Shown here piece by piece: positions 11,565 through 63,268 of a stretch of 64,000 nt of DNA (position 1 is its first letter; every line of letters starts with the position of its first letter). A model generated the notes under the pieces. That model was not told the origin of the DNA, ran no database searches, and worked only from the letters and a program-made list of their open reading frames with translations. Source of the DNA: Allomyces arbusculus (taxonomy: Eukaryota; Blastocladiomycota; Blastocladiomycetes; Blastocladiales; Blastocladiaceae); contig JADHYV010000065.1 in NCBI GenBank assembly GCA_027604705.1, positions 1 to 64,000 of the forward strand. The letters are read 5' to 3'. The position numbers and the translations under genes are program-made.

Positions 11565-11636
11565 GTCACCGCCCAGGATCGAACTGGGGACCTTGAGTGT
11601 GTGAGACTCACGTGATAACCACTACACCACGGTGAC
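11565..11636 (-). tRNA. tRNA-Val (anticodon CAC)
   Basis: On the minus strand the 7-bp acceptor stem GTCACCG pairs with CGGTGAC. The anticodon loop CTCACAC gives CAC, reading GTG valine codons. The A box (TGGTGTAGTGGTTATC) and B box (GTTCGATCC) are both intact. Length is 72 nt with no intron and no encoded CCA. The nearest downstream T-run is about 65 nt away. Confidence 0.95.
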
Positions 11637-11644
11637 GAAATAGA

Positions 11645-11673
11645 CGATGCTTAACTGCTGAGCTAACCCACCG
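11645..11673 (-). pseudogene. tRNA 5'-half remnant next to tRNA-Val
   Basis: Read on the minus strand, immediately upstream of tRNA-Val, this segment contains TTAGCTCAGCAGTTAAGC, matching a tRNA A box and D arm. No matching anticodon arm or T arm follows before tRNA-Val begins. It looks like the 5' half of a second, truncated tRNA gene. Confidence 0.4.
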
Positions 11674-12382
11674 TTGAATTAAAACAACCAAGAATTTATG
11701 GGGTCGTCACCAGGCCACGAATTCAATGGCTCTTGACCAGAGCACCATTGACCGATTTCACTTCCGTAGCACAGGCTCCCAAACGCGTGTGCTTTCACAT
11801 TTCGTTGCCGCAACAATTTTCTTCGTGGTCCCTGAAGCCATACGTCATGGTCTGGAACGACGCAGCTTGGTGCAAGAACTCCAGCCTGATTCAGCTCCAC
11901 CAACTCCAAACGCTCACCTACGACGATCTGAACAGGTGGAGAGTGTTGTTATTGACTGCCGCAAGGGCGTCCCGGTCGGGTGGGAGCGTACCGCGCGGCG
12001 TTCATGCTTACACTGTGTTCCTGCGACTCTGCTCATTTCATACATGGTCATGATCTCTGCCATAAACCGAACCTTCCATCCAGTCTTCACAGCAAATTTA
12101 TCAATGAGATCGGCGCGACCGCCGATGAAGATGTCTGCGAGAGACGAAGCGCAGGCAGAAAGACGGGCGGGGCAGCAAGGAATGAAAATAGGACAAGAGA
12201 GAAAGGCAGAATATTTTACCATCCGTGGAAAATACTTGCTTGCCAGAACGATTCGCGCAAATAGTGGACGACATCCAGAGTCCAGTCTAGCTTTTGTTTT
12301 CTAATTTCAAGCACGCCCACCTTCGCTACCTATGTACAAGTCGTCTGCTCCTCCACCCTCAGTCCATCTCGATCCAGTCCAT
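11674..12382. other. Unassigned, AT-richer region
   Basis: About 700 bp with open frames on both strands (for example 11,726-12,304 on plus and 11,914-12,222 on minus). None shows a recognisable domain or the strong G/C third-position bias of neighbouring genes. It may be decayed sequence; I do not call a gene. Confidence 0.4.
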
Positions 12383-18842: not shown

Positions 18843-21503
18843 TTACGCGCGCCCCACCGCAACCGTCGCCGCCGCTGTCGGGCCTACAATCTCGTTGGCC
18901 GCGAGTTTCCGGCGCTTGGCCGCGCGCAACTCGTCGACTACATACACGTTCGATCGTGGTCAGTCCTTCGTTCACTCGTGCAGAGTCAGTGCAAACAACA
19001 TACTCATCACCAGCTCCTCGGCGTGCACCTCCTCTGCCGTCACGCGACTCCTCGCCCACCCCATCCCCACATCACCGCCACCCCTCCCGACCTCCAATCC
19101 CCACCGATCCACGCCCAACCTCCCCTGCGCGCGTACGACCACATCGTCCAACGCCGCGCCCAACACCTGGTCGATCCACGCGCCGCCAAATTCCCGACCG
19201 TGCTCGTGCACGTAGGCCAACTGCACGCCTACCTCGGCCGCGGCCGCGCCGGGCACGGTTGCCGGCGTCGGGCGCGACAGGGTCGGCGGTTTCGGGCGCG
19301 CGGGCGGCGCGGGTTTCGTGGGTGGAGCCGACGCGGTGCTTGAGATTTTCGAAGGAGGCGCGTCCGAGCTCGTGGTGGGGTCCTGCGCGGCGGGCGCGGA
19401 CGCGGCGGTGGTGCCAGGAATGGATGTGGAAGTGGAGGTGCTCTTGCCTGCGGCGGCAGCTGCAGCGGCGATCGCGGTCGTCGATGGCCGTTTCACGACG
19501 CGTTTCTTGCCCGGGGCTGGCGTTGGGGCCGGGGCAGCGGGTGCGGTGGGTGCAGTGGCTGCTGGGGTTGGCGCACTGGGCGCGGTAGGTGCGGTCGACG
19601 TCGGTGCGGCGGCGGGCGGTTTCGAGGTCGTAGGAGCGGCGTTGGCCGTGGATGACACGGCGGGGGTCGCGGCAGTGGTCTTTTTACCGCTTTTGATCGT
19701 CTTGGCCGGTGCGGGAGCAGCAGGTGCTGGCGCAGCAGGAGCAGCCGGTTTCTGCGCGGCTGAGGGTGCCGGGACCGCGGTTGTTGCAGGTTTGCTCGGT
19801 GCGGCCGTATTCGTCGGTGTTGCGACCGGTTTCGCCGGTGCGGCGGTAGGTGCGGTGGCCGTACCCGGCCCCGCCGCCGCCGGTGCCGCCGTTGCGGGCT
19901 TTCCCTGCACAGCCCCGTGCGCAGCCCCCTGCGTCCCCTGTCCCGCCGCGGCGGCAGCTGCGTTCCGCACCATCCCAACCAGCGTGGCCGTGATCGCCTT
20001 GAACTTTTCCAAATTTGCCTTGGTCGCCAAACTCCTCGGCTCGTCCATAAGCGTCTGGCTCTGCTTGAGCGCAACTTGTTGCGCGCGCAAAATCGCAATA
20101 AACTCGGCGTGCTTGGCCAAGATCGTATCGCGCGTTGGCAACCCGTCAAACGCCGGCTGTCCGCGCAATTGTGCCATGTTGCCCTCGATCTCCTTGAATT
20201 CCGTGATCATCGCGACCAAGAGACGCATCAGCCGCGCGGCTTCGTCGGCGTCGGTTACGGGACGTGCGGCGACGGCGAGGTTCGCGGTGGTTGTGGACGC
20301 GACGGCGGTAGTCGGCGCTGGCGGCGCGGGGGACGCCGAGGTGCTCGGACCGCGCGCGGGTGGAGTCGGCCGTGGTGCGGCGTTCGGCGCCGGTGCGCGG
20401 CTGCCGGTCGGGACCGCAGGGGACGCACTCGTCGCAGGGGTCGCAGACGAGGCCGGTGGACGCGAGGCGGCGGCATTAGCAGCGGCGGCGGCGTTGGCCG
20501 CGGCCATGGCCGCGTGCGCTTGCGCTTGCGCGTTGGCCTGTGCCTGCGCATTCGCCTGCGCCTGCACTTGCGCGGCGAGGATCGCTTGCCGTTGCGCGGC
20601 CTGCTGCTGTTGCTGCTGGTTCGCGGCCTGTTGCTGCTGTTGCTGTGCAGCCGCGTACGCGGCTGCTGCGGCCATGGCGGCTTGCTGTGCTTGCTGTTGC
20701 TGCTGTTGTTGCTGTTGCTGCTGGAGTGCGGCTTGCTGCTGCGCGTGCTGGTGCTGCAACGCCGCCTGCTGTTGCTGCTGCTGGTGCTGCAGCGCCGCTG
20801 CCTGCTGCTGTTGCTGCTGGAGCGCCGCCGCTTGTTGTTGCTGCTGCTGCAGGGCAAATATGCGCTGCTGCTGCGCCTGCTGCTGTTGCTGCTGCTGCTG
20901 CTGAAACTGATTGAGCGCAGCTGTGCCGACCATCGGCGACGACGTCCCGACCGGTGCGCCGGCCCCCGCGGGCGGTTTCTGCTGCGCTTGCGCTTGCGCC
21001 TGCTGTTGCGCCTGCTGCTGCTCGCGAATCCTTGCGGTGACCAACTGCTGCTGTGCCGGCGTCAAATTCGCCATACTGATCTTCCCCTGCGCGAGCGCCG
21101 CGATCAGCGCCTGCACGTGCGCCTGGACCTGCGCTGCCTGCGTCGCCTGCTGCACCGGTTGTTGTGGTGCCGCTTGCGGCTGCACCGCCGCCGCAGACGC
21201 CGCACCCACTTGCGCCCGCCGCGCGTCCAGCGTCTTGGTGATATGGTCCACTTTACCCTTGTACAGCGCGACATACTCCTGCACCGACGTGGCGCGCGCG
21301 AAGATGTCGGCCTCGAACTTGTCGGCCATCTTGGGGATGTCCGCACGGTGGCCCGCACCGGCGCGGTCGGCGAGCGTCTGGACGAGCGTCGCGCGCAACT
21401 TGGCGCGCACGTCGGGCGTGATGGCCGCGCGCCAGTCGCCGCCGCCGTTCGGGGCGCCGGGGGCGCCGTTGGGGTTCGGCGGGTTCGGTGGGGCCGCGCT
21501 CAT
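18843..21503 (-). CDS. MED15: Mediator tail subunit Med15 (Gal11) with KIX domain and poly-Gln
   Basis: Mediator tail subunit that contacts transcription activators. The main exon is 21503-19004; a short terminal exon, 18937-18843, follows a 66-bp intron (GTATGT to TGTAG) and adds MIDELRAAKRRKLAANEIVG. Total is about 864 residues. Residues 23-95 form the KIX domain: DWRAAITPDVRAKLRATLVQ, then PKMADKFEADIFARATSVQE and YVALYKGKVDHITKTLDARR. Residues 130-330 are Gln/Ala-rich with many Gln runs. A helical block near 400-480 (LVAMITEFKEIEGNMAQLRG) resembles the middle of fungal Med15. The remainder is Ala/Pro/Thr-rich. The KIX plus poly-Gln layout makes the call strong. A small KIX-like gene lies 1.2 kb upstream on the same strand. 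Confidence 0.85.
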
Positions 21504-27235: not shown

Positions 27236-30200
27236 ATGCAGCAACAGCTGCAGCAACCGCAGCAGCAGACGGGCATGCCGCACTACGACGAACGGCAGTG
27301 GTTTGTCTCGTCCGTCTACTATGCCGACTACCACCTCGTGCACACGCCGCTCAAGGACAAGATTGCCGCCGCCAAGAACCTGCGCGCGTTGCTCGCCACG
27401 CACGTCTCGTCGCAGGACCGCGTCATCCTCGCCTGCTGCATTCTGCTGTGGCCGCAGAATGCCGACCGCAACGTTTACGGGCTTGACCTCGCCCACAATG
27501 ACGGTCTTGCTGCGCTCATCGAGCACCCGCAGCGCATGTCGGCCGCGCTTGCGTCCGAAGTCGGGTTTATCGTAGCCATGCTCGGATTCTACTCGATGCA
27601 GGTTTCGCGCGACCTCGGCACCGCGTTTTGCCAGTGGCTCTCCGAGAGCGTTGCGACCAACGTGCAGTTCCGCGCCACGGTCCTCAATATGCTGCTCGCC
27701 CCGCACCACCCGCTCCCGCCGCCACCATTGCACCCGGGCACGGTTCCGGCTGCCATCACGGGGCCCTTCCTGCCGGCACTCGTCCAGGCCGCGTGCGACG
27801 TGCTCCCGCACAAGCTCTCGCCGCCGCTTTTGACGTACCTGCTTTCGAACCATCTCGACACGGTCGCGCCCACGCTGCTTTCGCTCGTCGAAACGGGCTC
27901 GTCGCGCGAAAATGCGCTTGCATGTTTTTCCACGTGCGCGCAATCGCTTTTGCGGCCCGCCGTGGACCAGATCCTCGACTGGCTACGCGGCGAGCTCGGC
28001 GTCGACTCTATGGCTTCAACCGCATCGATCCAGCCGTTCGACCCGCTCCCGGCCAAACTCAAGTACCACGTATCGAGCCGCGTGCTTACGCTACTCCAGC
28101 TCGTGATCGCTGTTGTCCAGGCGCACCCGGACCGGCTCCGGGACCATTTACCGGCCATGGGCCCGCTGCTCACCGTGTGCATGAGAAAGGCGAAAAAGGC
28201 CACGTTTCTCGTACGCCAGATCCTCGAGTGCGTGCCTGTCAAGGACCGTGTCGGCGACAACAACGACTGGTGGGTCGCACTGCACGTGGATACGGCGCAC
28301 GCGGTCGTCAGTTCCAAAATGGCCATGGACTGGGCCGACGCGCTCGCCAAGGCACTTGATTCGGGTCATCCGACCGAGACGGCGCTCACGCACTTAGTCG
28401 GTAGCACGACCGCGCCGCTGTGGCAATTTCGCGTGCGGTTTGCCGCGGCCACGGGCCAGGGGACGCCCAATAACCCGACCGACTCGACCATGGACGCGCT
28501 CGACCGCGCTCTGATTGCATGCGCCAAGTGCACGAATGCGCCATTCCATGCCGGGGTCGTACGTGACCACTTGACGGCGGCCACGATTGGGGGGCCCATG
28601 ACCACGGCGCTCGCCATGGCGCAGGTCCCGAGCTACGTCGCGCGGCTCGCCCGGTGCTTTGCGGCGACCGTGGCAGCCAATGGCGATTTGGACGCGACTG
28701 CGCCTGTCTTTGCCGCGCAGGCCGACGTGCTCGCAGTGAGCATGGACTTGCTCGAGTCCAACTGGGGCATGATGACGACCGTGCTCGACATGCTCGGCGA
28801 CGTGCAGTGCGCAGAGCACACGTCCGATGTACTTGTCTTGATTGCGGCCAATTCAGGATTGGCCGCCAAGCCGCGCATGGCAGCGCTCACGGCTCTCACG
28901 CGCGGGTTCCCCAACGTGATGCGCGGCCACGACCACCTCGACCCGCTCGTGCAGGGCATTCTCGCGCACTGGACGACCGAAGATCTCAAACTCCACCTTG
29001 CGTCGGCCTTGGCCGTGGCCACTGACGCGGCGCTCGCTGACGTGTCCGAGCGCACGCGCGACCTGATTGCCCTGCAACTGACCGACGCGGCCGCGACCGT
29101 GACCAAGGCCTACCTCCCCATCGCCGCGCGCCTCCCGGGCCACCTGACGTCAACAACACTGCACCAATTCAAGCGGCATGTTTTCAAGTCGCCGCACAAT
29201 GGCCAGTTTCGGCAACCACATTTCGTGCAAGTCGTCGACAAGGACCGCGCCGAGGACTTGCCCGTGGCCGACATGGTTCAGATCTTCCACATGACGGCCT
29301 CATTCCCGCTCCCGCCGGCCTTGGTCACGTCGCGCGACGCGCTCGAGTTCTATTGCGCGTGGGAATGTGCGCGGTACTGTATTCTGACGCGGTTCAAGAC
29401 CCCGCTCGGCACTGCCTCACAGACACTCGCTGCGCTCGAGGCGTTCTTGCACAAGCAGTCGAAACTGGCGTTGCACTTACTCGATGCGCTCGAGCGGTGG
29501 ATCACGGTCGCGATGCACCCGTCGCCGCTGCACTTGCTCCCGCCGATCCCGAAAGTCAGTATGGCGTTTTTCATGGCGAATGCGACGCCAATTGGAGATT
29601 GGGTCGCGCGACTTCGGCGGTATGTGGCCCGGTACGCTGCACAGTACCGGTGGCTCGGGCTTGCCGCCAAGCACACGCTCGAGACGCTGCATGCCGCGAT
29701 TCCGGCACCGGGTGCCGCGAATCCCGCGCAGGGGGCCGCCGCGCCGGGACTCCTCGCGCGCGCGGATGTTCCGCAACTCGCGCTGCAGCTCGTGCAGTTT
29801 GGCTGGGCCGATACGCTCGCCGGTGTCCAGGCCGTGCTGCCCTCCCGCGACTTGTCCGTGGAATTGCAGCTCGCGCAGGGTCGCGTCGAGGCCGTGCGGA
29901 ATGACGAGAACCTGAACCACGTCGCGACGAGTTACCTGCTCCTCTCGGACTACAAGGGCATGGACGCGTTCGCGAAGGAGCACCAGCGCGACGGTGGGGA
30001 CCACCTGCTCGTCTACCACTACCAGATGCTGCAGGCGCTCGCGCACCAGAAGGACCGGCGGTGCGAGGTCATGGACCCGTTCCAGTTTGCCACGCCGCTC
30101 GCACGGATGCAGGCTGCGCTCGTCGAGGACCAGCCGCTCAAGTGCTTGGACGTCTACGAGTCGGTTGTCAAGGACGCGCTGGTTCCGCACGATACGCTCG

Positions 30201-33122
30201 CGATACTGCATTGGCCGACGGGTCCCGACTTGGATGCGGGGCGGTTCTTGAAGTTGCAGCGGAGGCTCGGGAACTTGAAGGTCGCACGCGCGATCTTGTC
30301 GCAGTTCGGGGATGTACGTGGTAAGGAAGTCGAGGATTTGAAGTTGACGCTCGCCGAGGGGCGCGCGGTGCTGTGGAAGGTCGTGGAAAGGCACCCGCTG
30401 GTTCTGGCGCGGTGGTTGATCAAGGACCGGCTCGAAATGGCTGCCGTGAACGGCTCCGCCGTCGAGGCGTCCGTGAAGCGGTGGATGATTGATCCCGCGG
30501 CCAAGGACAAGAATGTCGAGAACGCCGTGTCGCTCCTCGTCGGTCCCTCGCCCGTCCAGTTCAAATACGCTCCGTCGGCGCCGGATAGCGCTGTGCGGCA
30601 TCTGCTCGCCGCGGGCCTCTGCGCGGCACCCACCAACGCCAAGGCGTGGCATACAGTCGCCCAGTTTGCGGTCCACGTCGCCGGCCCGCTCGGTGGCGAC
30701 CAAGACGACGGCGCCGTCGAACTGGTTCTTCGTTCGCTCGCGCAGTTCCTCGCGTTGACCGACCACCCGACAGCGCCCAAGGCGCACGCCGCGGCGCTGC
30801 AGGTGATCCAGACGCTGCCACACGTGTCAGCGGTACTCGACGGCATGAATGGTTATTCGCTCGACGAGACCAACGCACACGTCTGGGAATTTCTCGTTCC
30901 GCAAGTGCTCCCGCTCGTCGAGCACGCGCATCCGGCCGTGCGCGCACACGCGGCGGCCGTGGTCGCGCGTGTCGCGCGCCGCGTCCCGGCAGCTTGCGTT
31001 TACCCCGTGCTCGTCAAGAGCATCGAGGCGGCGCAACGGCACACCGAGGACATGAACCCGTACGCGCCCTTGCTCGACGCGTTCGAGGACCAGGATATGG
31101 TCGAGGCGACGCGTGTCTTGATCCACCACGCGCTCAAGTTGACGGTGCTCTGGGAAGAACAGTGGTACCAGATGCTCGCGCATGTCTACGCGCAGGTCGC
31201 GAAAAGGCACATGGCCGTCGACGAAGCCGTGGCCTTTTTACGCGCGCAATGCGACGAATACCTGCACTACCCGGTCACCGAACATGAGGCGTGGTTCCAG
31301 GCCGAGTACACCGATAAGATCACGCGCGCGCTCGACGACGCTGACCGCGCGTGGGCGAACGTGCGCGGTAAGTGCGACGCGGACAAGTCGACCGAGACGT
31401 TCCGCGCCGCACTGAAAGTTGCGTGGCGGCCGCTGCAGGGATTGTCGCATATGCTGGGGCACGTCGTCAACCAGATGCGCACGCTGCAGCTCGACCAGGT
31501 CTCGTCGCTCTTCACGGACCTCGACTTGTCGAGCGTGTATTTGCCGGGTACCGACTTGAAAATGGCCGCCATGGCCGATGACGTGGTCGTGCTCCCGACC
31601 AAAACTAAGCCCAAGAAACTCAAGTTTACCAGCGAGCAGGGCACCACGCACCAGTACCTGCTCAAGGGCCACGAGGACCTGCACCTCGATCGGCACATGA
31701 TGCAGTTCTTGCGCGCCGCGAATGCGGCTCTGCGCGAGGCCGCGAGTAAAGGCGACTTGCAAGCCGCCGCCATGCTCGCTCCGTCCCCCGCGTCGCCTGC
31801 AAATCCCAACTTTGACGTGGCACGCGAGTACGCCGTGGTCCCACTCGGGGCGACCGCCGGGTTCATCCAGTGGGTCGACCACGCCGTGCCCATGTACACG
31901 CTGTATAAGCGCGCGCAAATGGCCATGCACCTCGACCCAGCGACCCCACCAACTCCACCGCCGAAACCGCTCGCCGTGTTTAATGCAGCTGCGCAAAAAG
32001 TGCTCGGGCTCGCGACGGTACCGACCACTCACTCGGTGCGGAGGCAGTGCACGGCCGCCCAACTGCGCGCGATTCATGAGCACCTCGTGGCCACCACGCC
32101 CGCGGCGTTTCTCAAGTCGGAGCTGCTCTCGATTGCCCCGACGGCGCGCGCGTACCTCGTCGGCCAGCGCCGGTTCACGCACTCAGCGGCAGCCATGTCG
32201 GCGCTCGGGTTTGTCCTGGGGCTCGGCGATCGACACCTCGACAATGTGCTGCTCGATGTCGCGTCGGGCCAGGTCGTGCATATTGATTTCAATGTGTGCT
32301 TTGACCGCGGCGCCAGTCTGCGCGTGCCCGAGCGCGTGCCGTTCCGGCTGACCCGGTTTTTCACGGACGCCATGGGCGCAGTCGGCGTGCTTGGGCCGTT
32401 CACGCACGCTATGCGCACGGTGATTGCGGTGCTGCGCAAGCACGACAAATACTTCATGGGGTTGCTCGAACCGTTCGTGTTGGATGAGAATCGCGAGTGG
32501 GGGATCATGGATGTGCCCGTGGCCGTGCCCGGCGGGATGGCCGTGGCTGCCGCGACCAAGAGTCTGATGGGCACGGCGCCGTCGACGGCCGAACCGAGTG
32601 CGGCTGACGACGACGACGTCGACGAATCGGTCACGACGATGCCGTCACAAATGACCAGTGATAACGGCGACGACGAGCTCGACGGTCCGCCACCGTCAAC
32701 GGCGACAGCGTCCATCGGCCACGCGCACGGCGAGGATGGGGTCGATGATTTGGGCGATGGGTTGGACGGGCTCGACATGAACGATCCCGTCGGCCAGTCG
32801 GGCGCGACCAAGGGGGATTTGGATCTGGACAATGTGGCCGCGTCCGGATCGTCGGTCTCTTCATCGGCGCACCGCGATCGCGCACTCGTGATTTTGGCGC
32901 AGGTGCACAACAAGATTAATGGGTTCCTGCGCCCGGACCAGACGGAGCCGCTGAGTATCGAGGATCAGGTACGTGCTTGCTGCCTTCTTGCCACCGTGCT
33001 TGTCGTGTTGCGGATGTGGACTGATCCATTTTTGCGTTGTCCAGGTCGACGCGCTGATTGCTGAAGCGACTGACGAGGAGCTCCTGTGCCAAATGTTCGA
33101 AGGGTGGACGGCCTGGCTTTGA
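27236..33122 (+). CDS. SMG1: SMG1-type phosphatidylinositol-3-kinase-related protein kinase
   Basis: PIKK family kinase that phosphorylates UPF1 in nonsense-mediated decay. Exon 1 is 27236-32968; a 76-bp intron (GTACGT to TCCAG) precedes a final exon, 33045-33122, encoding the FATC end. Total is about 1936 residues. The N-terminal 1000 residues look like helical repeats and the FAT region spans about 1000-1400. The kinase domain contains the SMG1-specific LPTKTKPKKLKF and YLLKGHEDLHLDRHMMQFLR, AGFIQWVDHAVPMYTLYKR, catalytic loop LGLGDRHLDN (about 1662) and HIDFNVCFDRG. The FATC ends QMFEGWTAWL, as in SMG1. Human SMG1 is about 3660 residues, so this version is roughly half length. SMG1 is missing from commonly studied yeasts. 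Confidence 0.93.
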
Positions 33123-33607: not shown

Positions 33608-35505
33608 TCACGCATCCCCCGAGCCGCCCATAATGTCGGCGTCGCGCACGCCCCAGTACCGGAATTTGCCATCGTCACCATAGGTGAGGAGCGCTGGGCT
33701 ATGCTGGCTGCTCGCGACGCGCGCAACACCCGTGCGATGCATGCTGTCGAACCGGCCGACCACGTCTCCAGTGAGCGCGTCCCAAGCGACGACCTGCGAC
33801 GTGACCTGCCCCGTCCCGTCATCTTCGAGTGCCGTACCCAGCACATGCCGCTCATCCCACGAAAACGACGCGACACCGTGCGCGGCCGCACCCACCATGG
33901 CCGCCGTTGGTGCCGGTCCGGACGCACGTGCGCTGACAGCCGCGTCCACGGCGGCACTCGACACGGCGCCGTAATACGCTTTGAGTGTGCGCCCCGACGC
34001 CGTCTCCCACAGCCGCGCGGTCCCGTCGGCGCCCGACGTCAACAGGTACGCGCCCGACTTGGACCACTGCAGAGACGTGACGCGGTGGCCGTTATGCGCG
34101 TGACGCCACGTTGACGTGCACCGCCCACCCGTCGCGTCCCAGAGCCGCACGGTGCCGTCGCCCGACGCCGTCGCAAACTGGCGGCCGTCAGCGGACATGC
34201 GCACGGTCGTGATTGCCGACGTCAACAGACTCGCGGGACCTGACGGCGCGCCGGCGGGCACGGCCCCTGCGGCCGACGCGTTCGTGCCCGTGGCCGACCC
34301 GAACGCAGACGATCCGGCACCGCCGGGCACGACGGTTGTGGTCGTGTCGTCGCTGCCACCGGCCGAGGCCGTGAAGCACCGGAACGAGCGCACGTCGTAC
34401 ATACGAATTGACGAGTGCGCAGTGCCCGCAACCAGGTACTGGCCGCACGGGTAGAAGGCGATCGAGTAGACGGGGAACGTGTCGGGGATGTACCGGAAGG
34501 ACTTGCGCGAGGAGGACCGCGAAATGTCGTAGAACCGGATATGGTGGTCCTCGAAACAGCCGGCCAGAATCATGCCGCTTGGGTGGAACGAGAGGTCGTG
34601 GATCACCTGGTGACGAACACGGGGTTAATTAGTCGGTTTGCACACGTGGTGAGGGGATAAAATGATGAAGCGCACGAACCCCCGAATTGTCGAACAGCGA
34701 CTTGTAGACGGGCCCATTGTCGTATTCGCCCGGCACGCCGCCGCGCACCGGTGCGTCGTTCTTGGGCACGGCGACGCGGTTGTTCAAGAGATCGTCCATG
34801 ACATCCATGTCGAGGATGCGGATCGTGTTGTCGTAGCCCGCGGTCGCGGCAAACTTGCCATCCGGGCTGATGGTCAGGCTCGAAATAATGCCATTGTGCT
34901 TTCCCGTGAAGCCGGGCGTGTAGGGTGGCAATGGCGCGCTGTCTAGAATTTTCAATTCACGTCAGGACACACACACATCTACTCGACCGATCACCAGCCG
35001 AGAAACGATCGTACCGCCCGTTTTTTCCATGAAGATTAGCTGGCCAAACGTGGTCCGGTTCTTGTCCACCAGGATATCAGACAGCCCCGCGGCCTCGGTG
35101 GGTTTTTCGTTCATGGGCACATCTGATTAATCACAACGACCCCCAATCACGCCCAGGTCAAAATTCCGTTCCAACCACCAACCAGCCAGTCAAATCCAGT
35201 ACAAATATATCGCCGAAGACCACACAAAGCACACTATTCCCCGCCTCCCAATCTTCCAGCGAGACCATACCGTCAGACTCTGCTTGGGCGTCGTCAAGGA
35301 GGGGCAAGTCGCCGGCCTCGGCCTGGGCGCCGAGATGCGCAAGCTGCGCGAGCCGCGGCGACGGGTCGAGCGAGTAGTCGGTAAGCCCCGTGGCCGTTGC
35401 CACAACCTGCGCGACCGATGGGAAATCGTATTCTTGCAGCTGTGCGACAATGAGTCGCAGGACCTCTTCGCGGTCCATTTGGTCGCCCAATGGAACGCCG
35501 GGCAT
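33608..35505 (-). CDS. Cleavage stimulation factor subunit 1 (CstF-50)
   Basis: WD40 subunit of the pre-mRNA 3'-end cleavage complex. Exons: 35505 to roughly 35225 (donor uncertain), 35122-35015, 34942-34680 and 34606-33608. The N-terminal segment DREEVLRLIVAQLQEYDF matches the CstF-50 dimerisation helix pair. WD repeats then begin at HNGIISSLTISPDGKFAATA, with VIHDLSFHPSGMILAGCFED, FRYIPDTFPVYSIAFYPCG, VRMSADGRQFATASGDGT and WRHAHNGHRVTSLQWSKSGA, and end in FRYW. FRYIPDTF and the KAYYGAVSS segment mirror human CstF-50 positions. Poly-Thr/Gly/Ala insertions between repeats are lineage-specific. Divergent from the Pop3-like gene, another RNA-processing factor. Confidence 0.87.
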
Positions 35506-43395: not shown

Positions 43396-46300
43396 CTAAT
43401 CCACCCCCCGCATCCCCGGCGTCCCCGGCGGCATCCCCACTCCTCCGAACCTCCTCACCGCGACCGCCGCCGCCGCGCGGGCCTTGTGCAACTCGTGCGC
43501 GCGCAGCAACAACTTCAGAAGCGGCGGCCACATGGGCGGCGCCAACTGACCCGATGCGATGCGCTGCAACTGCGTCTCGACATAAACCGCATCCTGCAAT
43601 GCGCGGCACTGCGTGGGCAGATGGTACCGCGGGTTCATGGCCGCGTAGGGCGTTTCGCGACATACCCAGCACGGTGTCTGCTGCGCGAACAAGTGCGCGA
43701 CGCGCGCCGACCCGCCGAGGTGCGCGGACCGCGTGAACTGCACGGGGGTCACGGTGCGCGAGGTCGGCGTGCTCGTGCCGGACGAGGATGCGGTTGCGGG
43801 CGCGGCGGGGACGGACGGTGGGGGCGGTGGTGGTAGTGGTGCTGGTGGTGGTGGTGGGGCAGGGGCGGCCGCTTTCGCCAACTTGGACGGCCGCCCACGC
43901 CGCTTCGGCGCGCCTTTGCTCGCGGTTGGCGCAGGGATCAGGACCACGTTCGGTTCCGCCGGCGGTAGTGGTGGCGATGGTGGCCGTGCGGTTCCGGTAC
44001 CTGGGGTCGACGCTCCGTTTGCAGTGGCCGGAGTTGAAACAGAGCTGGCGGTCGCGATGTCACCGGCCGTTTTGGTCTTGCCGCTCGGCACCTCGCTCAC
44101 GGCCCGTGCAACGCATCCCGCGGTCGCGGCCGTTTCGGCAGGCGCGTCTGGGAGCGGCACCGACGCCGACTTGCGCGACCGCAGCGGTGGTGGTTGCGGT
44201 ACGACGACAGCGGTTGCGGGAATGGTGGCGAGGGACTCGTTTGATGGCGGCGGCGGGCTGGCGGCAGCGGCACCAACACTCGGCGGCGGCAGTGGTGGTG
44301 GTGGCGTCACGGCGGCAGTCCCGTCCTCGACAAGCTCGTTGAACAGCGTCACCACCAGCGACGACGATCTGGGGGGCCCGTCACCACTTGTGCGCGGCGG
44401 GACTTGGTCCACGTCCATTGCGTCCTCGGCACTCGTGCTGGCCTTGGCACTCGCCGCGGGAACTGCGGCGCCCACGGCGCACACGGCGTCCACGACATCG
44501 ACCGCCATTGGCTCCCCGCCCGCGTCTGCGTTCTCTTCCACGGCCACCGCTTTCCTCACGGCCGCCAACGCCGCCGCGATCGGAATCCGCGCTACAACCT
44601 CGACCTCCCCACCGCCATTTGCTGCCTCCTCGGCCTCCTCTGCGCCGGTACGACTGCGTTTGGTCTCCCTTCCTTCCTCCTCCTCATACAGCTCGTCCTC
44701 GTCAATGTCCTCCTCATCCCCGTCCAGCTCGCGGTAACTCGCGTTGCGCGCGCGCTTGCGCGACTCGGCGTTTGCGCTCAACTTGGCCGCGCGGGGCACC
44801 CTCTTCCCATCGCGGTCGCGGTCCGACACGGCTTGGAGTTTCGCTAACAGATCGAGCCACGCCTGCTCGTCGAGCGCGGGTCCCTCTCCCTCCCCTACGA
44901 GCGACGCGACTCCCGCCGCCGTCGTCGACTCGGTCTCAACCGCCGACACCTCCGCATCCGCCGCCGACGTCGGATCCGCCTTGCCGGCCCCGCGCAACCA
45001 CACCGTCTCGAACCCAAACGCCACTCCCCCACCACCCTGCTCCTCCCCTCCGGCCTGCGCGCGATCCAGCAACCGGTCAATCTCGTGCGTGTCCCACGCG
45101 GTTGGGACGGCCGCGTCGGCGGCCTCGTCGTCGACGACAGCCTGCGCGCCGTACTGCAGAATGCCGGCCAGATCGGTTTCGTTGAGTGCGGCGTCCTTCA
45201 TTTTCTGCACGACGACGTGGTCAAGCGCCAGTTTCTTGCGGCCGAGCGCGACCATACGTTCTTCGGCGGACCGCGAGGTGACGAGTTTGAACGCGAGGAC
45301 GGGTCGGGTTTGCCCGATCCGGTGTGCGCGTGCGATGGCCTAGTTGGAGGAGAGGGGTGCGGCGTGAGCGCGAGGCGAACGCAGACGGGGCGCGGCCGGC
45401 CACATTCGTGTTGGCGTACCTGCAGGTCCTGGTGCGGGTTCCAATCAAGCTACATATATTAGATCCAACAGTGTCGTCAGTTCCATCCCCGCACGACCGC
45501 ATCTTGGCAGCCCAGCGCAGCAACATACGTCGTGCAAGATGACCGTATCCGCGGCCGTCAAGTTAATCCCGACCCCACCCGCCCGCGTCGACAACAAACA
45601 CACAAATGCGTCCTCGTCCTGATTGAACGCATCGATCCGGTCCTGCCGGTCGCGCTGCTTCGTGTTTCCGTCCAACCGGTAATACCGGAACGGCCTGACC
45701 GCCCCCGTCGCTCCACCTCCCACGACCGGCCCGAACCGCTGCAGCCCGACGAGATAATCCTCCAAGATATCCAGCGTGCGCAAGAACTGCGCGAAAATCA
45801 GCACCTTGTGCCCGTCGGCCCTGAGCCGCGGCAGAATCTGGTCCAGTAACACGAGTTTCCCCGCGGCCTCGACCAGCCGGCGATGCTCGTCGCGCGCGTC
45901 CGCGAGTCGCGGCAGGCCGTTCTCGACGTCTGGCAATGTGTACGGATGCGACAGGACCTTGCGGCACTGCACGAGCACGTTGTGCAGTGACGCCGACCGC
46001 GCGCCCGCGGCGCCCGTGCGGCGCGCCGATTGCCCGAGCGCCGCGAGAAGCACGCCGTTCTGCGAGTAAATGTCGCGGATTAGCGCGCGTTGCAGCGCAG
46101 TCATCCGGACCGGCACGAGCAGTTCGGCTTTTGGCGGGAGCGTCAGGTCGACGTTCGACTTGATCCGGCGCAGAAAGTAGGGGCGTAACAGGTCGTGCAA
46201 TGCCGCGAGTTTCGCCGACGCTGTCTCGGTCGTCGGCGTCGCTACGCCCGCCCGGTCCCCGTCGTCGGCCTCGCCTTCGGCGGCGTTGGGCGTGCTCGTC

Positions 46301-48724
46301 TTCGCGGCGGCCACCACCGCTGCCGCTGCTGCATCCAAATCGTACTCCCTTGCGAGCACCTCCGGGTCCGGGAACGCGTGCGGTTGAATGAAATGCAGCA
46401 GGTTGAGCACTTCGCGCACGTTATTCTGCAACGGCGTGCCGGTCACCAGGACCGTATGATCGATTTCGAACGCGGCCAACCGTTCAAAGAGTTTCGACGC
46501 GTCGTTCTTGAGCCGATGCCCTTCGTCGACTACCAACAAATCCCAATGCACGCTCTTGAGCCGACTGGCCGCCATGACCGCCTCGTAACTCGCAATCACG
46601 ACATGGCACTTGACGGAACTTCCACGCGCCGGGTCCGTGAACACTTCGTGCGCGAGCGTCAGGTCGCGGTCCACCGCAGTCCCCGGAACCAACACCGCGT
46701 GCAGTGCGGGCGCCCATTTGCGGAACTCGCGGTCCCAGTGCTTGAGCGTCGAGTTCGGCGCGACGACGAGCGCCGGGTACCGCGCGTGCCGCGTGACGAG
46801 GTACAGTACAAAAGCCACGATCTGGACCGTCTTGCCGAGCCCCATTTCGTCGGCGAGGACACAGGACGTGCGCGCACACCAGTTGCCGAGCAACCAGTTG
46901 AGCCCGTCCACCTGGTACGGCTTCAGTTTGCCGATCCCGTCCAGTTCTGCGGGCTGCGCTGTCAAGAGTTGGAACGACGCCGGGTCCGGCCGCGTGTCGT
47001 CCCCGCGGGGCCGCATTGCGCGGTCGCGCACCGAATCGAGTTTTTGCGCGTCGTGGAAACGCGCAAGGGCCGAGTCAAATTCGGGGTCCACGTCGCGGGC
47101 CAGAGTCGCACGCGTTTCCCACGTGGCTGCGGAAATCGGCAGGCCGCGCCACTTGACGAGGAACCGGCCGCCGTGCTGGACAGCGACCACCTTGTGCACG
47201 TGCGTCCATGCCGGATCAATCGCGTGCTGCTCGGGGATCGGCCACGTGCGATACTTGTCTTTCGCGACAGCGCGGTTGAACGCGCGCAGTTTGAGCCTCC
47301 GCGTGCCGAGCAACCAGTCGGCATGCACCCACCGCACCGCGCGGTATGACCGGCCCGCAAACTTGACCAGGTACTCCCGCGCACCTTCAGGGGAGTCGCG
47401 GTAAGTCAAAATCTTCTCGACCTCGTCGGCGCCGACGACGCACAGCGAGCAGTGCCCGTTATCGAGGAGCTCTAGCAGCGCTTCATCGCGCGATAGCTGG
47501 TCGGCGGCGACGCCCGAGTACTCAGCCATGATCGCTGCAGCCGCGCAGGTCCAGTGCGCGGCGCAGTGACACGCGCGGCACCGGAAGGTGGTCGAGGTCG
47601 GGTACGCCGCCGGGTGGTCGTCGGCGGGGACCGGGTTGTGGCAGACGGCGCATTTCGTCCCGGCCGGCGGGTCCTGGCACCGCGGGCACACGAACTGGTG
47701 GTCGAGGAGGTATTTGTCGAACGCCGTGGGGGTGCGCGAGTCGCGCTTCGGTAGACACGCCTAGATCGGCATCCGTGGTCAGACTCCGCCGGTTCGCTCC
47801 AGCAACGGTGGGTGGGAGTCGTACTCCGTGGTAGACGTTCGTGCACCGCGTGCACGGCCGGACATCGCCAAGCGGCAGGTAGTCCTCGTCGTCGTCGTCG
47901 TCGTCGCCCGACGACCCGGCAAACACGTACTTGGACTCGCGCGCCGGCCGCTGTTTTTCCTTCCTGCGCCGCGACGACCCGCTCCCGCGGCGCTTGGTCG
48001 GGCGAGCCGGGTCGGACGCGCCGCCGCACATGCAGCACCGCGTGTCGTGCGGTGGGGCGGCGAAGCGCGCGGTCAGAGTCGCGGCGAAGTCAGCCGAGGG
48101 TGGGGACGGCTCGGGTTCGGGCTCGGGCGGTGCGGGCGCCGTGGGCGGTGGTGGTGGTGGTAGTGGTGGTGGGGACAGGTCGCAGACGACGGGCGCGGGT
48201 CCCGGGTCGGCGTCGTCCTCGTCGTCGGAGACGGTGATCCGGCGATTATGGCGGCGCGACGCCGCCGGGGGGACGACGAGCTGCGCGTCGTCTCTGCTCT
48301 CCTCCTCCTCCTCCCCCTCCTCCTCCACCGCCGGTTTTGGGACAGGCGGCGGCGGCGGTGTTGGCGGCAGCGATCTCAGCTCCGTCTCTTCGCCCTCCCC
48401 TCCCTCCTCTTCAGCTCCGGGCGGCCCATAAACCTCCCACTCCCTCAACACCTCGGCAATCTCCTCTGGCAAGTCCGGCTCATTCCTCCCTTCGCGGGCA
48501 GCGACCTCGGTCTCGTAGTCGAGCACCGCGTACGGGCATGAGGTCAGGTTGGCGAGCGGTTCCCAGGTGGAGGTGCCGTCGGACCAGAGCACGCGGTACT
48601 TGATGGTCCCGCGGCGCGCCTTTTTGCCGGTGATCGAGCGCACTTCGTATTCGTCGTCCTTGGCGTCAGTCACTGCGGGGTCGAGGCTGGGGTCTGCCGG
48701 ATCGGGTGGAGATGGGTCGGCCAT
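43396..48724 (-). CDS. CHD/Mi-2 (Mit1-like) SNF2 chromatin remodeller with an extra N-terminal chromodomain
   Basis: ATP-dependent nucleosome remodeller, closest to Mi-2/CHD3 and fission-yeast Mit1. Exons 48724-47825, 47760-45529, 45449-45420 and 45339-43396 give about 1701 residues. Order: an N-terminal chromodomain (about 24-75; EYEVRSITG, VLWSDGTSTWEP); acidic and Pro-rich linkers; a PHD finger split by a charged insertion (CCMCGG, CTRCTNVYHGACLPKR, FVCPRC) plus a second Cys/His cluster (CAVC, CRACHCAAHWTC); two chromodomains (VEKILTYRDS, VHKVVAVQHGGRFLVKWRG). The SNF2 motor shows ADEMGLGKT, DEGHRLKND, TGTPLQNN, LLSTRAGGVGINLTAADTVI and AIARAHRIGQTRPV. A C-terminal CWVC-x-H-x-C knuckle follows a disordered Pro/Ala tail. 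The third exon is only 30 nt. Confidence 0.9.
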
Positions 48725-57786: not shown

Positions 57787-58605
57787 TGTGTGGGGTGACG
57801 GCCGCGGGAGAGGAACGCGTGCGTGCGTGTGCGCCTGTGTCGGAGATGAGCCAGGTGACTTGAGAGTGAGTGAGTGATGGTGCGTGCAAAACGCAAACGC
57901 GGCCAGCCGGCACGGAGCCAGGCCGCCCCCCAACCGGGCGGCCGAGCCAACAACCAACGAGCGGCCGAGCGACCGAACGCGCGGCCCGGCCGGCCGTCGC
58001 CAACCGAGGCGAGGCAATGCGATGCGACGAGCCGCGGCATGGGAAGCGCGGAAGAGCGCACCTGCGATCGCAAGTCAGGAGCGCGGTGAAGGGTGAAGGG
58101 AGCGCGCGGCGGGAGGTGCGTGCTGGTGCGTCGATGGCGCGGCCGATGGACTGGGACGGCGCGACCTGCACGGGAGCGGGCAGGATGCGCGCGCAATGGA
58201 TGGACGGCGGCAGCGTCGGCGTCGGCGCGGCGGCAGGGAGGAGGGCCTCGGCAATGGAGGCAAAGGGCGGGCGGGCGGGCAGTGGGCGCCGGACAAGTCG
58301 TGGGGGCCGAGGCGGGGGGGAGCGATGGCGGGAAGGAGCGGGAGCGCAGGCGGGAGCGCAGGCGAGAGCGCAACGACAGCAGAGACGGCCGGCGGTTGCG
58401 GCCGGGAAACGCCAACGCGGCCCGTGGCTTGCCGTGGCCGCTGCACGTGCGCGCGGCAGCATTAGCCCACCGACCGCCGCTTCATCGCCGCGTCGCGGTT
58501 CCCCATCGGCCATCAACGCGATATGTGTTGTTCCTCTCCCGCCCGCAAACCAACATCAATTCATCCCCATTCAATTCATCCCCATTCAATTCATCCCCAT
58601 TCAAT
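57787..58605. other. Intergenic region
   Basis: About 820 bp of very GC-rich DNA upstream of the proline-rich gene and beyond the TFB3 stop. Plus-strand bias to G is strong at 58,080-58,340. Open frames are compositional. The minisatellite at its right end is listed separately. Confidence 0.45.
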
Positions 58606-58613
58606 TCATCCCC
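58557..58613. repeat. 15-bp minisatellite spanning the TFB3 stop codon
   Basis: Three full copies of CAATTCATCCCCATT plus a 12-bp partial copy. The TFB3 stop (TGA on minus, 58,606-58,608) lies inside the partial copy. As the unit is 15 bp, the same TGA recurs in frame in each further unit. Confidence 0.92.
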
Positions 58614-59779
58614 TCCTCGGCCCCACAAACACCCCGCGGTAGCTCGCCTCGAGCGACCGCAGATACGTGACCGCCACCGCAAACCCGCCCGCCTGGCACG
58701 CGCGCGCCTCCCGAAACGCGCCCCCGTACGCGTCGTGGTAGCTCGTCTGCATCACATACATCCCGTCCTCGACCGCGTCGTCGTGCTCGAGCGTCGCAAA
58801 CGCGTCGACGACCGTGTCCACGTCCGAGAACGTGACCACGTCCGCGACCACGTGCCCAAACCCGGCGCGGTGGTGCTGGTGGTGCGCATTGCCGACGCTC
58901 AAATGCGGCACCACATGCATCTGCTGCTGCCGGTGGTGCGCCAAGATCGCGTCGGCCGGCCGCGACGAACTCGCCATTTCATTCAGGATCGCCTCGGCGC
59001 GCGACTGCTCGGCCTGCTCTTCGTCGCGCCGCCGACGGAGTTGCTCGGCGCGCGCCGCGAGCCGCTGCTGCTGTTCTTGCTCCACAAAGGCCTTTTGCGC
59101 CTCGACTTCGCGGTTCAGCTTGGCCGTGTTGATCGCAATCTGGTCGTGGTTCTCGCGCTGGAACTTGCGCATGCGCTCCATGGTCGCCTCCACGTCCACG
59201 TCGTGCACGAGATTGAAGACTACGTTCTCAGAAACGTCAGTTTCACGGTTTGACGATGAGCGAAGAAAGAAAAGAAAAGAACAAGCAGCAACAGCAGCAC
59301 CACATACCCACGTCTTCCACCATCTCCAGGAAATCATTGTACTCGCGCAGTGTCGCAAAATCCTCGCGCCGCTTGTTAAACCTACACGCCCCGCGAGACC
59401 GGTAAGCCAACATTGTCCCGCGCGCGATCCAAATTCCGCATCAAAACGTACACACGCAACGCTCGCCGCCGCTCACGCACCTCCTTGTCGACCATCAAGT
59501 TCTCAAACACGGGTGCAATCACGTCCTGCTTGCGCAGATCCGTCCCGCAAATCGGACACGGCGCCTTGCCCAGTTTAAACACACGGCCAATGCATTCTTC
59601 GCAACTACATGCATCCGCGTGAGTGAGTCCTCCGTTGCGGTTTTGGAGAGAGATGGGCAGGACTGGGACACGAACATGCGATGGTTGCACTTGCTCACCA
59701 AAATCTTCAGATTCGGCTTCAGGTACCGCGAAAACTTGCACACCTGGCACGTCACTTCCTCGCCGTTGGTGCCGTCCAT
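58606..59779 (-). CDS. TFB3: CDK-activating kinase assembly factor MAT1 / TFIIH subunit Tfb3
   Basis: RING subunit linking the CDK-activating kinase to core TFIIH, for transcription initiation and repair. Exons 59779-59676, 59604-59452, 59381-59308 and 59219-58606 give 314 residues, close to the usual size (309 in human). The RING finger (about 11-56) reads CQVCKFSRYLKPNLKILVSK, CNHRICEECIGRVF, CPICGTDLRK. The MAT1 signature follows: FENLMVDKEVRERRRALRV, then FNKRREDFATLREYNDFLEM, VEDVVFNLVHDVDVEAT. A long charged coiled coil (FQRENHDQIAINTAKLNREV) and a Gly/Tyr-containing end complete the typical layout. Splice junctions restore strongly conserved sequence, so the model is firm. Confidence 0.93.
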
Positions 59780-60266
59780 GGTCAAGGAGCGTCACGGTGG
59801 GAGATGGTGCGGGTCGAAGGGTTGCAGCGGTGCTGGTGCTCCGAGATTCGGTCACGTCGAAAGATTCGAACTGAATTGGCCCCAATGTTGGGTTGCAACA
59901 AGTAGCTGGCGATTGTTGTGCTGGTGGTGGAGGATTGATTGGTGGATCATCGACATTGATGAGGCGAGCCAAGTGACTTTTTGGGACGTGGTCAGGGAAT
60001 CTGACGTGGTTTGCGGGAGGTTTGACTCGGACTCGCGCTTGGTTTGACGTGGAAAACCAATCAGGTCCACTGCCTGCTCCGCTTCACTTCCCCCAGCTGT
60101 CGCAGCGCGAATCATGTGTGCGACTGCGGTCTTGTGAGGGATAAAATTCTCAGATAAGAGAGAAGAGCTATATAATGATGATTTTGCGCTGGACCTGCCG
60201 GCCAACTGGCTCGCGCAATGCCGTGGCAAGATAACGGGAAAAAATATAAACGGGGCGTCATCGGCA
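59780..60266. other. Region between TFB3 and tRNA-Gly
   Basis: About 490 bp. The left half should contain the TFB3 promoter. GC falls towards the tRNA. No gene seen. Confidence 0.45.
60239..60250 (+). promoter_or_regulatory. Upstream TATA-like element of tRNA-Gly
   Basis: AAAAAATATAAA lies about 17-28 bp before the tRNA, the position of upstream TATA elements that recruit TFIIIB in several fungi. The role is inferred from position. Confidence 0.45.
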
Positions 60267-60337
60267 GCGCCGTTGGTCCAGGGGTAGGATACCACCCTCC
60301 CAAGGTGGTGGCTCGGGTTCGAATCCCGGACGGCGCA
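60267..60337 (+). tRNA. tRNA-Gly (anticodon CCC)
   Basis: The acceptor stem GCGCCGT pairs with ACGGCGC, followed by discriminator A. The anticodon arm CCACC-CTCCCAA-GGTGG gives anticodon CCC for GGG codons. The T arm TCGGG-TTCGAAT-CCCGG and A box are intact. 71 nt, no intron, no encoded CCA. Confidence 0.95.
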
Positions 60338-61250
60338 ACGTTCTAATTATACAACTTCTTCACTGCTGCATTTGAAGGCCCACTTATACATTTTTTGCTT
60401 TGCTCCCATTTCAAGTTGTCTTTTGGTTCAGAAGTGAGGGAGGTTTCTGGTTGGGTTCTGGTCATTGTGTTTTTCACCAAAAAGTTTCGTTTTTTGGGAT
60501 TTGGCCAGCTCCATCAAGAAACACACACATGCCACACCTGTCTACTGCAACCCACATGCACTTGCCACACCCATTGCAAATGGCAACATGGCTCAATGCT
60601 GCAAACCGGCTAATGGTAGCTCACGCGACGTTCAAATCACTCCAAGTCAACAGGGTAGCATACTAGTAGATGCCAACTTGTGAACAGAGACCCACCAAAT
60701 TCCAAACATCAGTGCATGCTTGGTGGTGGTGACCAACAGCAGCTGAGGTGACATGTCCCAGCCTTGATGCCACAGTTGTAAAGCATAGGGAGTGCCAATT
60801 ACAACTCTGATTGTGGTGTGGTCAAACAGTAATTCAAATTGCACATGATATTCAAGTTTGTGAGTGGGCTAAAGGCATGGTTTTTCAGAAGCAAAGCTGC
60901 CAATTGTACTGGGGAACAGGACTGACATGTACTCATCACAAACAATGAAGAGGAACCAAAGCAGCCACAACAACAAACAATGGTGTGCAGCCTGTTGCAC
61001 TCTGGCATGACAGACAGGTTGCACAGCCATGTCCTTGATGAAACCCAACAGCAGTCAGCATGATGGGCTGTGCAGTCCAAAAATGTGTCTCTGCAGCCTC
61101 CTTCCACTTGTGCACACTCGCAATGCCATCAAGTCAATGCCCAAATGCATCTGCCAGTTTGGCATGATTTACTTCATTCCATGCAGCCTGGGCTGAGTTT
61201 AGGCGGCCTGTCTATTTCCAATTGTAGTTCCCATCATCATCATATGCTCA

Positions 61251-61312
61251 GTGGGCATGCAGTGTTGCATACCTACCCACAGTGCTGGTTCAGGTTTGAA
61301 TCCTGGACAGTA
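61251..61312 (+). pseudogene. Decayed tRNA-Gly-like copy A
   Basis: The T-arm part TGGTTCAGGTTTGAATCCTG (61,284-61,303) matches tRNA-Gly TGGCTCGGGTTCGAATCCCG with only C-to-T or G-to-A differences, and every CpG is lost. The 5' part is recognisable but weaker (GCATACCTACCCAC against GGATACCACCCTCC). It cannot fold as a working tRNA. Confidence 0.55.
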
Positions 61313-61772
61313 TTTGAGCATGCAGTCAATGCAATTAGGTCAATCCTGCCCAACAGATATGCCTTCATGGGGACGCCTTTCTGTAACTGATTGACAATTT
61401 GGCCCTCACATGACTTGCACTGCCATTCTTCAGCTACCTAGCCTGAGCTCAAGACATTGAACAGATTCTGCTGTAACTCACAATACACATCATTGTTATG
61501 TCCTGGGCCCCTATTGGCCTTTTGCCTCTGGTACAACTTGCTAGCAGCCACACATGCTCTCCATCTCCAACTGTGCTTATTTGGCCACATGTGCATTGGG
61601 CTTGCCAGGAGCAGGCGCCAAATTGTACAAATGCTACCCACAACACCTTCTCTGTTGGTGTCATGGTCGTGACTACAGACATCGCCAGACGGTGTGGCGC
61701 AGCCAGCCAGACGCACTGTTGGGTCCCACATGTAACTGTTGCATCATAATCCAAACCAGTGCAGGTCTTCAG

Positions 61773-61836
61773 CACCATTGGCCCAGGGTAGGATACCACC
61801 CTCCCAAGGTGTTACACAGGTGCAAATCCCAGACGC
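61773..61836 (+). pseudogene. Decayed tRNA-Gly(CCC)-like copy B
   Basis: ACCATTGGCCCAGG and GTAGGATACCACCCTCCCAA reproduce the 5' half and anticodon loop of the tRNA-Gly at 60,267 almost exactly. The acceptor and T arms are degenerate (AGGTGCAAATCCCAGACG) and no longer pair. Three of four CpGs of the T-arm side have become CpA. Confidence 0.75.
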
Positions 61837-62200
61837 TATAGAGGGTTTATATTCGCCCAAGTGCGCTGGGCATTGGTTCTTGAAGTTTTTGGATTGCTCT
61901 GAGGTTTTTTGCCTTATCATGTTCAATCCTCAGCAATGATTGAGTAAAATCGCTACTTCAAGGATTGGCGCCAGGTAATGCGTTGTGTCCTTTCTGCAGT
62001 GCATACTCGACGTTTGAAGCGCGCCTAATTACTCTTTTCCATGCCACAGCCGAGTTCAGGGAAGCAAACGGTTGGATTATCGCACACGACACGCATCATC
62101 ATCAAGACTCGGGCTCATTTGGGCCCTACACTTGGCCCTACAATTCTGGTATAGCTCAATTCGAGCGCACAACGCGCTCGTCTCCCTTCTCCAACAGTTC

Positions 62201-63268
62201 TCACTTGGCAGCACGCGCATTCCGCTTGGACACGGCAGGCGCCGACTTGGGCAACTGCGCGGCCATCCACGCGGGGACGCGCGACGCATCAAACATCCAG
62301 GCACCCGTGCTAAACGCATCATCCGGGTCCTCGCGCACGGCGCGCGGCGCCTGCACGGCCGTGGCCCACGACATCTTCATCGGCGTTGCGGTCGCGGGAC
62401 GGGACTGCACCGTCGGCGCGGCGGCAGCACGAGCGGTCTGCATCTGCGGATGCCCCGAAACCGGGCGCGGCGTCTGCGTCGCCTGCGTCTTCGGCACTTT
62501 CGGCAGTTGCGCCTGCATCCACGCGGGCGCGGCCGACGCATCAAACAACCACGCGCCCGACGTGAACCCGACGTCGGGGTCCTCGGGGCGCACAGGCGAC
62601 GTGCGGCGACGGACCGAGACACTCACCGTCGCGTGCGCCTGCGCCGGCTTGCGCGCGACCGTAACCACACGCCCGCGGGCGCGCGGCGCGAGTTCCGCTG
62701 CCAACCACGCCGGCGCTGACGACGCATCGAACATCCACGCGCCCGTGAAGAAGGCGTCGTCCGGGTGCGACGCGACGGGGCGGGCGGGGCGGGCGGGTTG
62801 CACGCGCTGCGGTTGTTGCTGTTGCGGGCGAGCGGCTTGCTGCTGTTGCGGGCGCATGGCCTGCTGCGGCTTCTGCGTCGTGCGCGCGGTCGGATGAGCG
62901 GCCGCCTGTGCGGCAAACAAGGCCGCGGCGGCCGCGTGCACCTGGTGCATGAACTGCTGCGCGGCCGGGGACGTCGGCGACCGCGGCTCCGCCTGGTGCA
63001 TGGTCGAAGCATTCGCGGCCTGGGCGGCCGCAGCGCGCGCAAACTGGGTCGCGGCCTTGAGCGCGGCCATGGTCGATTGCTGCTGCAGCGGAGAGAGGGG
63101 GGCCGGCGCGCGAGCCGCGGGGGTGGGTTGCAGCGCAGCCGGACGAGCTTGCGCGGGCGCTTGAGCGGGCGCAGGCGCCGGGCGAGCTTGAACTTGCGCG
63201 GGTTGCACCTTGGCAGTCACTGGGACGGCGGCGCGGTGCGAGGAGCGAGCAGAGTGGGTGCGGCCCAT
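62201..63268 (-). CDS. Unrecognised protein with three copies of a 26-residue GAWxFDAS motif
   Basis: Single exon, 355 residues. Residues 1-165 are Ala/Pro/Gln-rich with Gln runs. Three copies of a 26-residue motif follow: 168-193 (HPDDAFFTGAWMFDASSAPA, then WLAAEL), 230-255 (DPDVGFTSGAWLFDASAAPA, then WMQAQL) and 314-339 (DPDDAFSTGAWMFDASRVPA, then WMAAQL). Consensus: [DH]-P-D-[DV]-[AG]-F-x-[ST]-G-A-W-[ML]-F-D-A-S-x-x-P-A-W-[LM]-x-A-[EQ]-L. The linkers between copies differ and are low-complexity, with basic residues and isolated RKPA or RRRT patches. I know no family with this motif. The strict conservation against variable linkers implies a repeated docking site or short structural element. 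A TATA box sits upstream; the CpG-depleted block lies downstream. Confidence 0.8.
   Translation of the reverse strand: MGRTHSARSSHRAAVPVTAKVQPAQVQARPAPAPAQAPAQARPAALQPTPAARAPAPLSPLQQQSTMAALKAATQFARAAAAQAANASTMHQAEPRSPTSPAAQQFMHQVHAAAAALFAAQAAAHPTARTTQKPQQAMRPQQQQAARPQQQQPQRVQPARPARPVASHPDDAFFTGAWMFDASSAPAWLAAELAPRARGRVVTVARKPAQAHATVSVSVRRRTSPVRPEDPDVGFTSGAWLFDASAAPAWMQAQLPKVPKTQATQTPRPVSGHPQMQTARAAAAPTVQSRPATATPMKMSWATAVQAPRAVREDPDDAFSTGAWMFDASRVPAWMAAQLPKSAPAVSKRNARAAK

Follow-up and report, generated by a model that had tools for sequence, protein, structure and literature searches.

A CpG-depleted block between a tRNA-Gly gene and a protein gene, in part an apparent decayed tandem duplicate

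In the 64-kb stretch of DNA analysed here (the window), about 1.5 kb between a tRNA-Gly gene and a predicted protein gene has lost nearly all of its CpG. The loss is specific to CpG and is accompanied by a gain of TpG and CpA. This block is most likely (with a probability of roughly 0.7) old, non-functional and partly duplicated silenced DNA, in which deamination driven by 5-methylcytosine (5mC) would have produced the present composition. CpG decay of silenced DNA is already known in fungi and the block is a new example of it; its unusual point is that the identifiable part appears to be a duplicate of a tRNA and a gene tail.

Between 60,661 and 61,620 four CpGs were observed compared with 54.4 expected (observed/expected ratio, O/E, 0.074), which confirms the near-complete loss, with the same count of four, given in a preliminary description of this DNA. 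Mononucleotide shuffling of these 960 bases (n = 5,000) gave a mean of 54.4 CpGs and a minimum of 34. CpGs are left at 61,119, 61,204, 61,374 and 61,616. For the longer interval 60,338–61,670 the count was 11 versus 72.7 expected (O/E 0.15), the O/E of the whole window being 1.25, and the lowest value was 0.62 when 2,472 overlapping windows of 300 bases with a start outside 60,100–62,000 were compared. TpG and CpA, already described as frequent in the block, indeed reach 1.88 and 1.87 versus 1.11 and 1.10 in bases 1–60,000, and TpA is the same as background (0.47 versus 0.48). The summed density of CG, TG and CA in 60,338–61,735 is close to that of background windows (0.236 versus 0.257, sd 0.015), indicating that CpGs were converted and were not absent from the start. 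Reversing the TG/CA excess would bring the GC content of the block to 0.56; the values of three intergenic stretches in its vicinity are 0.54, 0.56 and 0.48. Expressed as the fraction of CG among all CG, TG and CA sites (the CG fraction, 0.50 for the whole window), the loss extends to all four 5' neighbours of CpG, with 0.05–0.15 in 60,338–61,735 versus 0.63–0.70 in bases 1–60,000. A change that affects only CpG, in all four 5' contexts and with a gain of both TpG and CpA, fits the deamination of 5mC.

A maximal-segment scan placed the block at 60,352–62,002 with a log-likelihood ratio (LLR) of 184, compared with 17.8 for the next best segment elsewhere and 19.0 for the best of 300 label shuffles at the same setting. 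Its edges vary with the scan setting, the strictest giving 60,352–61,941 (LLR 191) and the laxest 59,567–62,157 (LLR 161), both run without shuffles. At the lax setting a second CpG-poorer stretch was seen at 10,882–12,105 (LLR 31; GC about 0.46–0.53; O/E 0.86–1.06), which surrounds tRNA-Val(CAC) (11,564–11,636), the window's other tRNA gene. On the right side of the block a sharp return of CpG near 61,670 had been proposed; instead, five CpGs at 61,668–61,712 are followed by a CpG gap of 122 bases to 61,834, and the recovery is gradual. The left edge coincides with the 3' end of an intact tRNA-Gly gene (60,267–60,337, plus strand, anticodon CCC), predicted by ARAGORN and matched by Rfam RF00005 with 63.7 bits. 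This gene contains seven CpGs and has CG at 7 of its 14 CG, TG and CA sites, and its 5' flank at 35 of 110 (0.32). A tRNA gene acts as a heterochromatin barrier at fission yeast centromere 1, according to the accessible part of the respective study (PMC2040200). Here, too, a tRNA gene stands at the left edge of a presumed silenced stretch, with the difference that its barrier role is putative, and the analogy invites the idea that an active tRNA gene may form the left limit of a silenced domain.

Two decayed copies of the tRNA-Gly were found on the plus strand. The first, psi2 (61,246–61,308), has an alignment score of 45, compared with a best score of 37 elsewhere in the window on both strands and away from the tRNA and the two copies, and has no CpG left. 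The second, psi3 (61,772–61,835), was found by alignment and includes 26 bases around the anticodon that repeat the tRNA exactly (61,786–61,811). Neither copy was reported by the Rfam tRNA model at E ≤ 1, and no similarity was detected in the flanks of the tRNA copies beyond the copies themselves. Next to psi2 lies S2 (61,311–61,735, ends uncertain), identified by alignment, shuffles and blastn as a decayed duplicate of 61,920–62,345. This partner, which retains CpG, consists of intergenic DNA and the last codons of a minus-strand gene (62,201–63,268), predicted to encode a protein of 355 aa without a Pfam family, the 3' end of which is duplicated in the block. In this protein a motif around GAW(M/L)FDAS..PAW (GAWxFDA) occurs three times.

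The score of S2 against its partner was reached by none of 300 dinucleotide shuffles under each of three scorings, and blastn detected a core of 61,561–61,634 matching 62,185–62,258 (73% over 75 columns, E 1.5e-4). The strongest support comes from 61,500–61,771 taken whole; weaker parts are 61,309–61,500, where, for the three scorings in turn, 0, 1 and 96 of 300 shuffles attained the score, and 61,620–61,771 alone (3, 0 and 14 of 300). A tblastn search of the block with 736 outside reading frames of at least 50 aa, filters off, returned the gene-tail duplicate as its three best matches, and the later ones among the best 30 matches listed were judged to be chance or biased composition. A rival match for the end of S2, 61,645–61,767 to 34,194–34,313 on the minus strand, emerged from a tiled scan of the window (score 49.0 versus a null top of 41.5) and was reached upon re-testing by 0–11 of 200 shuffles with a short tile and by 0–35 of 200 with a long tile. 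The order of the elements is repeated, psi2 being followed by S2, and psi3 by the S2 partner with the gene tail. As read from these alignments, the right part of the block is a probable tandem duplicate of tRNA and gene tail. A tRNA-derived SINE would be expected to show a tRNA-like head and a common tail in many copies. Two tRNA-like heads with related tails are present here, but the tail takes in the end of the neighbouring gene, which favours a segmental duplication. The block had been described as free of genes, and this holds in so far as no Pfam match with E up to 1 was obtained for its six frames, translated with X at stops; it does not hold for the decayed tRNA and gene-end pieces that lie inside.

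For the direction of change, the intact tRNA-Gly was taken as ancestral for psi2 and psi3. In psi3, five of the six aligned CpGs have become CpA, none TpG, and one is kept, compared with transitions at 1 of 30 other C or G positions (Fisher 9e-5). The six aligned CpGs of psi2 have become TG (two), CA (two) or other dinucleotides (two), none being kept, so that 4 of 6 CpGs changed to TG or CA versus transitions at 1 of 29 non-CpG C or G positions (Fisher 0.0014). The seventh CpG of the intact tRNA lies outside both alignments, and if bases are counted in place of CpG sites, the values for the tRNA copies weaken to 0.005 and 0.020. A permissive alignment of S2 with its partner covered 38 CpGs, assigned to TG (11), CA (9), kept (3), other (6) and gaps (9); thus 20 of 29 ungapped CpGs changed to TG or CA, compared with transitions at 29 of 144 other C or G positions (Fisher 6e-7). 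With flat scoring and the core only, the numbers were 5 of 9 versus 8 of 58 (Fisher 0.011). Identity between S2 and partner is only 69–73% in these alignments, and the fate of a single CpG depends on the alignment chosen. The CG fraction is 2/78 (0.03) in S2 at 61,309–61,660, 20/73 (0.27) in the noncoding part of the partner at 61,836–62,200, and 184/319 in the coding region of the neighbouring gene; the value of 0.27 is below the 0.50 of the window and close to the 0.32 of the tRNA 5' flank. At the level of these aligned copies, the right part of the block shows the decay of formerly CpG-rich DNA, and the footprint of CpG deamination that had been proposed is supported, as CpGs of the tRNA-Gly and of the gene tail frequently correspond to TpG or CpA in their decayed duplicates. 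This comparison covers psi2, S2 and psi3 only, S1 being without a convincing copy in the window. An originally foreign, CpG-poor source, named in the preliminary description as an alternative, is excluded for most of 61,246–61,835, a local duplicate, but not for 60,338–61,245.

The latter segment, S1 (60,338–61,245), is the 0.9-kb left part of the block and the most CpG-poor one, with 8 CG among 214 CG, TG and CA sites. It may be what is left of a transposon, or foreign DNA poor in CpG from the outset, with only the right part being a decayed local duplicate. We regard this as possible, if on the unlikely side, and it is compatible with the explanation preferred here. It is favoured by the result that no convincing relative of S1 was found within the 64-kb window by tiled scan, pairwise shuffle tests and blastn/tblastn. 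The possibility that S1 is a further copy, whether of the duplicated unit, the 5' flank or the neighbouring gene, was rejected on both strands, as the scores fell within those of 100 shuffles each; the lowest result, 4 of 100, came from comparing the two halves of S1. In the tiled scan, which left out tiles overlapping each query and to which the match of S2 to 61,920–62,345 was therefore invisible, three of four S1 pieces scored below the top of their own null. For the tile 60,850–61,245 a minus-strand score of 50.5 was obtained near 6.2 kb versus a null top of 47.5, reflecting an inverted match of 61,108–61,190 to 6,226–6,317 (minus) that begins with the common TTGTGCACAC. When this match was re-tested with a short tile, 0 of 200 shuffles attained its score under two scorings and 48 of 200 under a third; with a long tile the numbers were 2, 0 and 133 of 200. 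This apparent match and that of S2 near 34 kb are each the best of many tiles and are regarded as marginal.

tRNA genes are favoured landing sites of some elements, which likewise counts for a transposon origin of S1. Neither a protein domain nor terminal repeats, by which a transposon would be recognised, were found within the window, however: the six frames contain no Pfam domain, and the two ends of S1 (100 bases each) share no more than one match of 7 bases and one of 4, which do not amount to clear terminal repeats or a target duplication. A search of a plasmid collection gave no match. Moreover, the loss of CpG runs continuously through S1, psi2 and S2.

According to the explanation we prefer for the whole block, the block would consist of an old local duplication without function, made up of tRNA-Gly copies and the tail of the neighbouring gene, and of the 0.9 kb of S1. 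As silenced DNA it would have been kept CpG-methylated in the germ line, the methylation possibly being attracted by the duplication or by the silencing itself. Deamination of 5mC to thymine over a long time could finally have changed nearly every CpG to TpG or CpA. We thus infer methylation to be the cause of the CpG loss, and its description as repeat-directed, made previously, is plausible because a duplication is present. A single motif pattern for DNA methyltransferases, applied to the six frames of the 64-kb window, found nothing, which says little. By analogy, Catenaria anguillulae, presumably of a lineage related to the source of the window, would count against the methylation reading. 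Very low 5mC has been reported for this species in the accessible part of one study (PMC8298701).

The accessible text of PMC4352252 ascribes the CpG-to-TpG decay of transposons in Tuber and Microbotryum, and weakly in rusts, to deamination of methylated cytosine and ties such decay in fungi to a Dnmt1-class (Masc2-like) enzyme. The block resembles the Tuber and Microbotryum cases in the CpG target, the excess of TpG and CpA and the non-functional nature of the DNA, but is partly a local duplicate of tRNA and gene end without a recognised transposon. For early-branching fungi, some protists and algae, 5mC was reported as confined to transposons, as in Spizellomyces, with 6mA at genes (PMC12695648, as far as accessible). 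Under such a system, silenced DNA would be expected to lose CpG and genes to stay rich in it. A review states, in its accessible part, that 6mA has almost entirely taken the place of 5mC in early-diverging fungi (PMC13297926). DNA methyltransferases of early-diverging fungi have been grouped, with Blastocladiomycota among the surveyed lineages, in the accessible part of PMC7862722.

A more specific version, namely that in a fungus outside Dikarya, with 6mA presumably dominant, a tandem duplication comprising a tRNA gene and a gene tail but no transposon drew CpG methylation to only one of its copies and an active tRNA gene stopped the spread, appears quite unlikely. If true, a duplication-sensing CpG silencing with a tRNA barrier would be recorded in the sequence.

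Instead of slow deamination, a premeiotic CpG hypermutation similar to repeat-induced point mutation (RIP), triggered by the tandem duplication, could have acted within a few sexual cycles; we consider this very unlikely. The required duplication is present, and the lowered CG fraction in the noncoding part of the partner may reflect a mild effect on that copy. RIP should strike both copies, however, and the partner at 0.27 is near the tRNA 5' flank and far above S2, while the intact tRNA keeps its seven CpGs. A CpA-to-TpA signature is also missing, with CpA raised and TpA at background level, and S2 and its partner, being about 70% alike, would have had ample time for slow decay. RIP of the Neurospora type is disfavoured by this absence of a CpA-to-TpA bias and by the many CpGs retained in the partner copy. 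The zeta-eta region of Neurospora is a tandem duplicate with 5S rRNA genes and a methylated relic of RIP. Both zeta-eta and the block are thus tandem duplicates with an RNA gene, decayed by C-to-T changes, but in zeta-eta CpA is struck and both copies decay, whereas in the block only CpG is affected and one copy is largely spared. A CpG-type C-to-T bias, which would be in line with a RIP-like process, does occur in basidiomycete transposons, e.g. in Microbotryum (PMC4352252, accessible part), and an account of RIP across fungi does not mention CpG or Blastocladi in its main text as accessible (PMC12543289).

A plain AT-rich, CpG-poor intergenic composition without methylation is hardly credible. 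The low-GC region at 10.9–12.5 kb does have less CpG than most of the window, but 12 overlapping 500-base windows with GC < 0.53, none touching 60,338–61,835 and all from two places only (10.9–12.5 kb and 21.9 kb), have an O/E of 0.86–1.06, about ten times that of the block, and TpG and CpA reach at most 1.38 in 500-base windows of 11,001–12,500. This equal-GC control and the direction of the changes seen in the copies of tRNA and gene contradict such a composition within the 64-kb window. Windows of equal GC with the same low ratio, which the preliminary description had named as evidence against its own interpretation, do not occur among these 12. A GC-rich window at 20,501–21,000 has TpG at 1.99 and CpA at only 1.19.

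The block records CpG-specific decay locally and carries its own ruler, as conserved copies of tRNA and gene lie beside decayed duplicates. Should the source be an early-branching fungus, the block would be additional sequence evidence that CpG methylation once existed in such fungi, and it would suggest that duplicated DNA other than transposons can be a target of methylation. With respect to the lineage, an open frame of 1,942 aa at 27,236–33,061 (plus strand) has a PIKK kinase domain and a match to the Pfam SMG1 family, and its kinase region is closest to SMG1 in the PDB (206 bits versus 143 for mTOR). According to the accessible part of PMC5709506, Ascomycota and Basidiomycota lack SMG1, and a number of further fungal groups and many other eukaryotes have it, so that the source, if a fungus, is probably not a member of Dikarya. 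The high GC content would suggest Blastocladiomycota, as a guess only. One protein of the window was used to look for relatives in each of two collections; 16 pattern matches in genome_contigs included no relative, and viral_contigs yielded no pattern match. A CHD-type chromatin remodeller with a SNF2 domain and a chromodomain is encoded at 45,448–48,724 (minus strand), with a second, sub-threshold chromodomain in an adjoining frame; its best PDB match is CHD4, with CHD1 close. A perfect tandem array of 3.9 copies of the 15-base unit TCAATTCATCCCCAT was observed at 58,556–58,613, at the 3' end of a MAT1-like frame.
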